A stretch of DNA of 64,000 nucleotides from Prochlorococcus sp. AG-418-C09 (GTDB taxonomy: Bacteria > Cyanobacteriota > Cyanobacteriia > PCC-6307 > Cyanobiaceae): positions 285,039-349,038 of the forward strand of contig QCLS01000001.1 in NCBI GenBank assembly GCA_003214355.1. The letters are read 5' to 3'. Each line of letters begins with the position of its first letter. Position 1 is the first letter of the stretch. The notes beneath the pieces are model-generated. The model was not told the origin of the DNA and searched no databases. It was given only the letters and a program-made list of their open reading frames with translations. This document shows positions 13,965-50,546 of this stretch, piece by piece. The position numbers and the translations under genes are program-made.

Positions 13965-14038
<74 letters not shown>

Positions 14039-14076: not shown

Positions 14077-14460
14077 TGAAGCAGGAGAGGTAATCGCAAA
14101 AAAGTTTTATTTTGGAAACGAAATAAAACTTTTTTGAGGAAAGTCCGGGCTCCCATATGGCCAGGCTTGCTGGGTAATTCCCAGTGCGGGAAACCGTGAG
14201 GACAGTGCCACAGAAACATACCGCCTAATACTTTTGAAGTATGGCAAGGGTGCAAAGGTGCGGTAAGAGCGCACCAGCAATATCGAGAGGTATTGGCTAG
14301 GTAAACCCCAGCTGGGAGCAAGGCTAGGTAGATTAATGCCATTAGATAATCTACTTTAATATGCGCCGCTCGAGGCTGTGAAGTAATTCCAGTCCCAGAT
14401 AGATGATTACCCATCTTATTTTATAAGGTGAACAGAACCCGGCTTATGCCCTGCTTCCTT
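14077..14460 (+). ncRNA. rnpB: RNase P RNA (bacterial type A-like)
   Basis: The two universal blocks are present: GAGGAAAGTCCGGGCTCCC near 14136 and ACAGAACCCGGCTTATG near 14432, together with GGGTGCAAAGGTGCGGTAAGAGCGC features in the middle. The ends pair as P1 (GAAGCAGG with CCTGCTTC). The 5' region contains an AU-rich hairpin of 15 bp (14098-14135) in the P3 position. The P15-like stem has no obvious GGU loop. It is the catalytic RNA for tRNA 5' maturation, with rnc directly downstream. Ends are approximate to a few bases. Confidence 0.96.
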
Positions 14461-14483
14461 TTACAGTCCATTCATTAATATCA

Positions 14484-19889: not shown

Positions 19890-21896
19890 ATGGTCGCTGC
19901 AACCGTTTCTTTGGAATCACTCTGTGTAAATAGTATAAGAATGTTAGCTGTAGATGCCGTCAATAAATCTAACAGTGGACATCCAGGCCTTCCTATGGGA
20001 TGTGCACCCATGGGTTATGCATTATGGCAAAATATACTCAACCATAATCCTAGCAACCCAAAATGGTTCAACAGAGATAGATTTGTATTATCTGCTGGCC
20101 ATGGATGCATGTTGTTATATTCATTGCTGCATTTAACTGGTTATAAATCAGTTTCTATTGAAGACATTAAAGAATTTCGTCAATGGGGATCAAAGACACC
20201 AGGCCATCCTGAAACTTTTGAAACTGAAGGGGTAGAAGTTACCGCTGGTCCCCTTGGAGCAGGAATTTCTAATGCTGTCGGGTTAGCAATAGCAGAGTCT
20301 CATTTAGCAGCTAAATTTAATAAACCAAGCCATGAAATAGTTGATCATTATACATATGTAATTATGGGTGATGGTTGCAATCAAGAGGGGATAGCTTCTG
20401 AAGCCTGTTCACTTGCAGGACATCTAAAACTAGGAAAATTAATTGCACTTTATGATGACAATCAAATTACAATTGATGGAAGAACAGATGTTTCCTTTAC
20501 TGAAGATGTTTTAAAAAGATATGAAGCTTATGGATGGCACATACAACATGTTGCAGATGGTAATCATGATGTGAATGGGATTACCAAAGCAATTGAAAAT
20601 GCAAAATCCGTAAAAGACAAACCATCAATAATAAAAATTTCTACAACAATAGGTTATGGTTCTCCCAATAAGTCTGATACCGCAGGTATTCACGGAGCTG
20701 CAGTAGGAGAAGAAGAAGCTAAGTTAACAAGAGAGTTTTTAAATTGGGAATATCCGCCATTTGAAATACCAAATGAAGTATATGGTCAATTTAGAAAAGC
20801 TATTACGAAAGGTGAAGAATCTGAGAAAAAGTGGAATTTAAAATTTGAAGAATATCGAAGAGCATATCCTGCTGAAGGCGAAGAATTTAAAAGAATGATG
20901 GAAGGTGAATTACCAAAGAACTGGTCCTCAGATCTTCCTACATATACTCCAAATGATAATGGTTTAGCAACGAGAAAACATTCTCAAATATGCCTAGGTG
21001 CTCTTGGACCTAATTTACCTGAATTAATTGGAGGATCTGCTGATTTAACTCACTCTAATTACACAGATATAAAAGGAGAAAGTGGATCATTTCAAGCACA
21101 TTCCCCAGAAAAAAGGTACTTGCATTTTGGAGTAAGAGAACATGCTATGGCTGCGATATTAAATGGGATTGCTTATCACGATAGCGGGCTAATCCCATAT
21201 GGAGGAACTTTTCTCGTTTTTGCAGATTATATGAGGGGTTCTATGAGACTATCAGCTCTAAGCGAGCTAGGTGTCATTTATGTATTAACTCATGATTCAA
21301 TTGGTGTAGGAGAAGACGGTCCAACTCATCAACCTATTGAAACTATTCCTTCTCTTCGCGCAATGCCAAATATGCTCGTTTTTCGACCTGGAGATGGAAA
21401 TGAGACAAGCGGAGCTTATAAGCTTGCTATTGAAAATCGGAAAAGACCTTCTGCACTTTGTTTAAGTAGGCAAGGAATGCCCAATCAAGAGAATACTTCC
21501 ATTGAAAAAGTTGCATTAGGTGGTTATATAGTTTCAGATTGCGAAGGTACTCCTGATTTAATATTTATTGGTACAGGCAGTGAACTAAATCTCTGCATTG
21601 AAGCTAGTAAAGAAATCTCAAAATTAGGCAAGAAAACTAGAGTAATCTCTATGCCCTGCGTAGAACTTTTTGAGGAGCAAGATGAATCATACAGAGAAAG
21701 TATTTTACCTAGTACAGTCCGAAAAAGAGTTGTAGTTGAGGCTGCACATTCATTTGGATGGCACAAATATATTGGCCTTGATGGGATTTGTATTACTATG
21801 GACAGATTTGGAGCTTCTGCCCCTGGAGGCAAATGTATGACTAATTTTGGATTTACAGTTGAAAATGTAGTTAAAAGAACAAAAGAAATATTATAA
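19890..21896 (+). CDS. tkt: Transketolase
   Basis: 668 residues. The thiamine-diphosphate domain is seen in [13 protein letters not shown] and the following DDNQITIDG; further motifs are [27 protein letters not shown], the [10 protein letters not shown] loop and the pyrimidine-domain block [14 protein letters not shown]. It transfers two-carbon ketol units in the Calvin cycle and pentose phosphate pathway. It follows fabF by 42 bp and is convergent with thiC, whose product helps make its cofactor. Confidence 0.97.
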
Positions 21897-21911: not shown

Positions 21912-23321
<1,410 letters not shown>

Positions 23322-23324
23322 TTA

Positions 23325-23425
23325 AAACCTGCCTTCCTAAATCAGAGTTAACTGAATCAGGTGAAAGATTATGTTCTCATAGAGAATTTTTAACTTAATA
23401 CCCAAAGTAATAACTAAAAAATAGC
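23325..23425 (-). promoter_or_regulatory. Candidate TPP (thi-box) riboswitch of thiC
   Basis: Reading the minus strand towards thiC: a TGAGA block (23375-23379), then CACCTGAT (around 23355-23363), a small stem TCAG/CTGA closing a 6-nt loop (23342-23355), and TTAGGAAGG (23332-23340). This order and spacing match the CUGAGA, ACCUGAUC, P5 and GUAGGGAA core of TPP aptamers. P1 and P2 are not clear by eye, so the aptamer may be divergent. It ends about 45 nt before the start codon, leaving room for an expression platform. Confidence 0.6.
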
Positions 23426-23479
23426 TCTTTTTAAAAGTTAAGTCATCAAAATTATTAATAAAATCAATAAAAAAAGATT

Positions 23480-23695
23480 TTATTTATCTTTTTGAATGGA
23501 TTGAATCTTTTTTAAAATTGATTGTCTTGAATTTCTTCTCTTAAGATCTCTGCTAATTATTGAATATAAACCAATTGAACCAATAGGTAAATAGAAGATT
23601 TTTTTTCTTTCACTTTCAAATGAAGCCCCCAATATTGCAATAATCAACATCAAAGGAGCTACTAAACTATATTGATTTATGATGCGTAATTTCAT
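23480..23695 (-). CDS. Small membrane protein, hypothetical
   Basis: 71 residues from an ATG. There are one or two hydrophobic segments (about 10-25, SLVAPLMLIIAILGAS, and about 34-46) followed by a strongly basic tail with DLKRRNSRQSILKK. No family is recognised. It lies 17 bp downstream of the M20 hydrolase gene on the same strand and upstream of the thiC leader. It may be cotranscribed with the hydrolase. Confidence 0.55.
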   Translation of the reverse strand: MKLRIINQYSLVAPLMLIIAILGASFESERKKIFYLPIGSIGLYSIISRDLKRRNSRQSILKKIQSIQKDK

Positions 23696-50474: not shown

Positions 50475-50546
50475 AGCGGATGAAGAGATTCGAACTCTCG
50501 ACATTCTCCTTGGCAAGGAGATGCTCTACCACTGAGCTACATCCGC
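50475..50546 (-). tRNA. tRNA-Gly (anticodon GCC)
   Basis: Minus strand gives acceptor GCGGATG/CATCCGC, D arm GCTC/GAGC, anticodon loop with GCC and T arm GAGAG-TTCGAAT-CTCTT (one mismatch-tolerant pair). Discriminator U. No encoded CCA. It reads GGC and GGU. No integrase or repeat suggests use as an attachment site. Confidence 0.97.

Follow-up and report, generated by a model that had tools for sequence, protein, structure and literature searches.

The 64,000-nucleotide stretch of Prochlorococcus sp. AG-418-C09 analysed here (hereafter the window) carries, in front of thiC, an element that belongs by descent to the TPP (THI-box) riboswitch family and that occupies the position at which relatives carry a canonical aptamer. 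With good confidence we regard this element as a decaying relic of the family's ordinary thiC TPP riboswitch, and thiC in this genome as probably independent of TPP. The original prediction had assigned the site to this family and placed it before thiC, and on both counts it holds.

Every block named in that prediction lies on the minus strand and in the order given: TGAGA, CACCTGAT, a TCAG/CTGA stem with a six-base loop, and TTAGGAAGG (Table 1). The pattern TGAGA-N(8-24)-ACCTGAT-N(8-24)-TAGGAAG, which was picked post hoc, occurs once in the 64 kb and in none of 100 dinucleotide shuffles; the blocks are real, ordered and not a product of chance. The neighbouring tkt had been placed outside the thiC unit and is so found, the two genes being convergent. 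The names thiC (which we take to encode HMP-P synthase) and tkt follow the original prediction and the known gene families.

Table 1. Features of the thiC leader and its neighbourhood (positions in the window)
Feature	Position	Strand	Basis and remarks
TGAGA block	23379-23375	-	read from letters
CACCTGAT block	23363-23356	-	read from letters
TCAG stem strand	23355-23352	-	followed by the six-base loop TTAACT
CTGA stem strand	23345-23342	-	read from letters
TTAGGAAGG block	23340-23332	-	read from letters
Probable eroded TPP aptamer	23316..23413	-	RF00059 full-length match; match of the family-built model at 23317-23415
J3-2 pyrimidine-sensor motif TGAGA (U39-A43, E. coli numbering), kept	23375..23379	-	alignment
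Remnant of P1 5' strand and P2 5' strand	23399..23408	-	alignments: ACTTTGGGTA replaces ACTAGGGGTG
Remnant of P2 3' strand	23366..23374	-	alignments: ACATAATCT replaces TCATACCCT
P4-P5 arm CCTGATTCAGTTAACTCTGATTTAGG, pairing kept, nearly zipped to one hairpin	23336..23361	-	fold and alignment
C77 and G78 positions (pyrophosphate site), both T	23340..23341	-	alignments
Presumed anti-aptamer element, lost	23319..23326	-	alignment: TTTAATTT replaces TTTGATCG/TTTGATCA
Upstream block AAAAGAGCTATTTTTTAG, kept in eroded lineages, presumed promoter region	23414..23431	-	alignment; promoter role putative
thiC, 456 aa, intact, preceded by the element	21912..23282	-	ORF
tkt	19890-21896	+	ORF

RF00059 aligns over its full length at the site with 23.0 bits, the best match in the genome (E 0.014 when a 251-base stretch was compared with all Rfam families and E 0.0218 over the whole 1.6 Mb genome). 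The gathering cut-off of RF00059 is 54.3 bits, and an Rfam scan at the gathering threshold did not report the window site; intact members of the genus often fall below the cut-off too, with matches above 54.3 bits in at least 72 of 266 genomes. A permissive Rfam scan of the site gave six matches, among which TPP was the sole riboswitch family. The second and third RF00059 matches in this genome reach 21.4 and 12.5 bits, and we rejected the former as a second TPP element: it sits inside a coding stretch, presumably LepA-like. By itself the RF00059 score is too weak to carry a claim of homology. The homology is settled because the thiC leaders of relatives, read at their own loci, have canonical TPP aptamers at the same position, exactly where the window's element sits. 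With a model built from 30 of these relatives the site reaches 29.0 bits (E 3.4e-5 over 149,460 bases), and the next match of that model in the window has 14.8 bits (E 0.3).

It is hardly conceivable, in our judgement, that the resemblance arose by chance or that the site suffers from an assembly error. The 21.4-bit match elsewhere in the genome would speak for chance, but the position is orthologous to a canonical aptamer, the flanks and thiC are intact and the block pattern is absent from the shuffles; moreover, the nearest relative (G265), which was assembled separately, is eroded as well. By score and by conservation the original prediction fares unevenly: the RF00059 score falls short of the curated threshold, and conservation of the core blocks is strong across the wider genus but is not seen within the two-genome clade to which the window belongs.

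RF00059 matched in 55 of 61 sampled genomes of the genus. Scores were 43.5-70.3 bits in 52 of these and lower in G056, the window and G048. Under stricter filters and a looser E-value at least 217 of 266 genus genomes had a match, as did 82 of the 91 genomes of a family sample in which three of the genus were included; these tallies include a few weak chance matches, for example that in G048. Aptamer erosion in G048 was considered and rejected: its 18-bit match falls inside a gene, which we take to be DnaK-like, and G048 is not among the genomes matching thiC. Homologues of thiC were found in 225 of the 266 genomes and are 93-95% identical among the matches listed. By hand count, ten thiC-bearing genomes (G265, G146, G129, G056, G084, G104, G152, G010, G170 and G223) had no RF00059 match among those listed. 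In four of them the thiC match starts at residue 16 (G084), 265 (G104), 48 (G152) or 5 (G010), and the leaders of G170 and G223 comprise 2 and 82 bases; these six genomes hold little or no information. The family model gives 75.9 bits for G129 and 64.0 for G056, and the losses in G265 and G146 are real. For the remaining genomes an intact leader was assumed from the RF00059 match (the thiC TPP match of G015, L007, has 69.2 bits). Of 252 loci with a thiC start we kept 194 that were distinct and had at least 200 bases of leader and at least 1300 of coding sequence.

In 30 diverse relatives the canonical structure has 93.3% of its cells paired, against 85.2% in shuffles, and two-sided changes occur in 12 of 23 pairs, against a shuffled mean of 6.6, so that covariation supports the canonical fold. 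The five P2 pairs are invariant in all 30. Under the model built from these relatives, 21 other thiC leaders score 64.0-98.5 bits, well apart from the window (see above) and from G146 (22.9 bits); the leader of G265 was not listed and gave 6-7 bits when unfiltered.

For a position-by-position comparison we used the 35 positions with at least 98% fixation in a set of 166 distinct intact aptamers, aligned with six damaged ones (L197, unparsed, was left out); the damaged leaders were set aside after inspection and the 166 'intact' rows were thus not chosen blind. At these positions 155 of the 166 intact aptamers have no change, ten have one and one has three. The window has 12 changes and G265 has 18, in an automatic alignment where one gap of the window row is possibly misplaced. 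As read from the alignments, the window retains two of the five P2 pairs (one Watson-Crick, one G-U) and, in the canonical register, two of the six P3 pairs (again one of each kind); a P3 register shifted by one base would form four of six pairs but would consume U39. Two or three P1 pairs are possible, depending on where the gap is placed. The highly conserved residues of the TPP aptamer are named in PMC3764141 as U39-A43, U59, G60, C77, G78 and A80, and eight of these ten (U39-A43, U59, G60 and A80) are kept in the window, where the P4-P5 arm with U59, G60 and A80 is present and pairable. C77 and G78 are both U, at positions that read CG in 65 of 71 parsed leaders outside the group that we call HLII-like (see below). 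Among the residues near the pyrophosphate, PMC3764141 describes G78 alone as being in direct contact, and pyrophosphate recognition is given in PMC4112796 as required for switching.

In the predicted minimum-free-energy structure of the window RNA the UGAGA is paired within a small hairpin (TTCTC-TAT-GAGAA), P4-P5 is almost zipped shut and P2-P3 is absent, whereas both P2-P3 and P4-P5 are predicted to form in two intact relatives. Folding energy itself does not separate the three and, compared with shuffles, is unremarkable in all of them (z of -0.58 for the window and -1.79 and -0.37 for the relatives).

The original prediction had suggested a reduced variant that lacks the outer helices. This is not supported: P1, P2 and P3 are present in the 30 relatives, P2 and P3 of the window are broken by scattered substitutions that do not compensate one another, both pyrophosphate-site residues are gone, and in the nearest genome, G265, the remainder is lost as well. 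The related reading that the window holds a divergent but working TPP riboswitch, with UGAGA and P4-P5 binding TPP weakly and other pairings standing in for P2 and P3, we consider improbable. The UGAGA, CCTGA and AGG blocks are intact, the P4-P5 arm pairs and the site is the genome's best RF00059 match, all of which favour it; set against this are the near-absence of a P2 helix that is invariant in 30 relatives, the missing C77 and G78, the predicted base-pairing of UGAGA, an aptamer less conserved in its clade than the rest of the leader (see below) and the description, in a figure legend of PMC4112796, of a P2-altered E. coli thiM variant as non-binding.

Were 12 changes scattered at random over the 35 positions, the chance of all of TGAGA surviving would be 0.10, that of TGAGA surviving together with two CCTGA-block positions 0.036, and that of an unchanged run matching the longest one observed (six) 0.68. 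The clustering of kept blocks is therefore not striking, and as evidence of some residual constraint it is equivocal. Re-purposing of the remnant, with the zipped P4-P5 hairpin or the whole leader serving in another role (mRNA stability, protein binding or another ligand), would fit the smaller number of changes seen by eye in the P4-P5 half than in the P2-P3 half and the persistence of a hairpin of -7.3 kcal/mol (23360-23330). Still, 9 of 200 shuffles fold as well as that hairpin and G265 lacks it, and we hold re-purposing to be very improbable.

G265 is the one further genome recovered for the window's clade. In a thiC tree built quickly from 69 rows, the two form a clade (SH-aLRT 99) that joins eight rows with intact aptamers (98). 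Within this clade conservation is inverted, and the aptamer is the least conserved leader segment: the two sequences are identical at 50 of 83 aptamer positions (60%), 39 of 42 upstream positions (93%) and 34 of 45 downstream positions (76%), with thiC itself 85.3% identical at the DNA level. In five intact pairs whose thiC genes are more diverged (80-84%) the aptamers are 78-90% identical, and in four of the five the aptamer is the best conserved leader segment (the downstream part is better in the fifth). We rejected a compact, lineage-specific new class of aptamer because such a class should be conserved within its lineage, and the opposite is seen.

In the automatic alignment the window and G265 share six changed fixed positions, at two of which the new base is identical. 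When neutral evolution at the fourfold-site base composition is taken as the model, the maximum-likelihood change at the 35 positions is 0.36 substitutions per site for the window and 0.57 for G265. The fourfold-site path between the two is 1.44, which is near saturation and exceeds the summed change at the fixed positions; thus a release from selection dating from before the split of the window and G265 is not required, and the release need have been neither complete nor early. On the stem branch the fourfold sites are saturated, with a length at the program's limit of 10. Between the window and G265 thiC has a dN of 0.02 and a dS of 1.28, which indicates purifying selection. Genes of the TMP-synthase and ThiG families are retained in the window's genome and in G265; neither was seen in the assembly of G056, which is 52% complete.

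Erosion is not confined to this clade. Changes at the fixed positions number 10 in G146 (L164), 5 in G056 (L159/L089), 4 in G110 (L266) and 3 in G129 (L158). The eroded leaders of G146 and G056 lie elsewhere on the thiC tree, where a minimum of three state changes is needed to account for the four rows scored as eroded, and the G146 lineage decayed separately from the window's clade.

The complement of the invariant aptamer sequence GATCA occurs within 45 bases downstream of P1 in 172 of 187 relatives' leaders; the chance of this five-mer is about 0.04 in each leader, and the leaders share ancestry. Of the 15 leaders without it, three carry GTGATT, for which pairing with G-U would remain possible, and the rest, all from other genera, lack the element. 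The downstream TGATC of relatives is plausibly the anti-aptamer arm of an expression platform. By alignment the window has GAACA and TTTAATTT at the two partner sites, so that the presumed switch has lost both its sides. No terminator was found in the window's thiC leader, and a promoter consensus scan of the leader returned one match where 1.3 were expected, nothing above chance. Farther upstream, on the same strand as thiC, lies an ORF of 71 aa (23480-23695, minus strand), and a similar ORF is seen by eye in G265 (L144).

Taken as the history of a relic, these observations suggest the following course. In the ancestor TPP would have kept the P1-P5 aptamer closed, and the downstream TGATC, complementary to the aptamer's GATCA, presumably reported the bound state and lowered thiC expression. 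In the clade of the window and G265 TPP control was probably released from selection, and P2, P3, part of P1, C77-G78 and the downstream partner were lost by ordinary substitutions, with thiC and the sequence upstream of the aptamer staying under selection. The leader is probably still transcribed but has probably ceased to sense TPP, so that thiC would be expressed at any TPP level. It is because the aptamer has decayed while thiC stays under selection that we think thiC independent of TPP; loss of TPP binding together with TPP-independent expression is the most likely outcome as judged from sequence comparison.

A separate alteration is seen in many leaders that are otherwise intact. We use HLI-like and HLII-like as labels of our own, assigned partly from leader sequence (the leader of MIT 9302, L060, falls within the HLII-like group). 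In HLII-like leaders (e.g. L011 1501-1599 and L018 1501-1599) the aptamer core is otherwise fixed and the pyrophosphate pocket, C77-G78, is altered. With four unparsed rows left out of the pocket count, CG is found in 1 of 113 HLII-like leaders, C77 in 2 and G78 in 85, so that C77 is replaced in 111 and G78 in 28, whereas nearly all parsed leaders of the other groups retain CG (HLI-like 19 of 20, sister 8 of 8, other genera 38 of 43). UGAGA is intact in all 113 HLII-like leaders parsed, with an anchor that permitted two mismatches. The state of G78 changes at least 14 times on the HLII thiC tree, and seven HLII-like leaders can pair right through J4-5, which would close the pocket. The sole HLI-like exception, that of G119 (L265 1369-1467), has UU at the pocket in an aptamer that scores 79.5 bits with the family model and neighbours the eroded G146 on the thiC tree (support 89); its UU is possibly a first step of decay. 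An altered ligand or specificity is a possible meaning of the HLII-like pocket change. A broader scheme, in which thiC leaders of high-light Prochlorococcus shift the sensed ligand stepwise starting from the pyrophosphate pocket, HLII-like leaders read a pyrophosphate-free ligand such as thiamin or HMP, G119 is an intermediate and the window's lineage then lost its sensor, seems to us unlikely.

The intact form of the element has been described before. According to PMC3766115, thiC is the single gene of each genome under TPP-riboswitch control in all the Cyanobacteria examined there, and PMC2662882 describes a thiC thiamin riboswitch in model cyanobacteria. In Prochlorococcus and its relatives, Table 1 of Axmann et al. 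2005 (PMC1242208) lists as cluster 2 a putative thiC TPP riboswitch, as a prediction only, in SS120, MIT 9313 and WH 8102, with the row blank for MED4; cluster 2 corresponds to the intact ortholog of the element that is eroded in the window. With the cyanobacterial thiC riboswitch (RF00059) the window shares the place before thiC, the block order, UGAGA, U59/G60/A80 and the P4-P5 arm, and differs from it in lacking P2, P3, much of P1, C77, G78 and the presumed downstream partner and in scoring below the cut-off.

Two further systems invite comparison. The predicted aptamers of diatom THIC genes (PMC9544697) are likewise TPP-like, lie beside THIC and are reported without thiamine regulation, but they are eukaryotic, sit in the 3'UTR and are described as highly conserved, whereas the window's sequence is itself decayed. 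The HMP-PP riboswitch (thiS motif, PMC6478431) is also an RNA sensor of thiamin metabolism but is presented as a separate class. Riboswitch loss as such is known, gene or riboswitch losses being marked on a yeast phylogeny in PMC5997356. In a literature search that lay mostly outside subscription journals we found no account of a loss of the Prochlorococcus thiC TPP riboswitch. Read as a relic, the window's element is a clear natural case of a riboswitch part-way to loss in a free-living, streamlined ocean bacterium, within a genus in which intact, pocket-altered, partly eroded and erased versions of the thiC aptamer are found. If feedback on thiC is lost, constitutive production of the pyrimidine precursor and of vitamin B1 is possible, which would bear on the supply of B1 in the surface ocean.

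Elsewhere in the window the structured RNAs are of ordinary appearance: an RNase P RNA at 14078-14461 on the plus strand (264 bits) and two tRNA genes on the minus strand, at 50475-50546 and 13965-14038.
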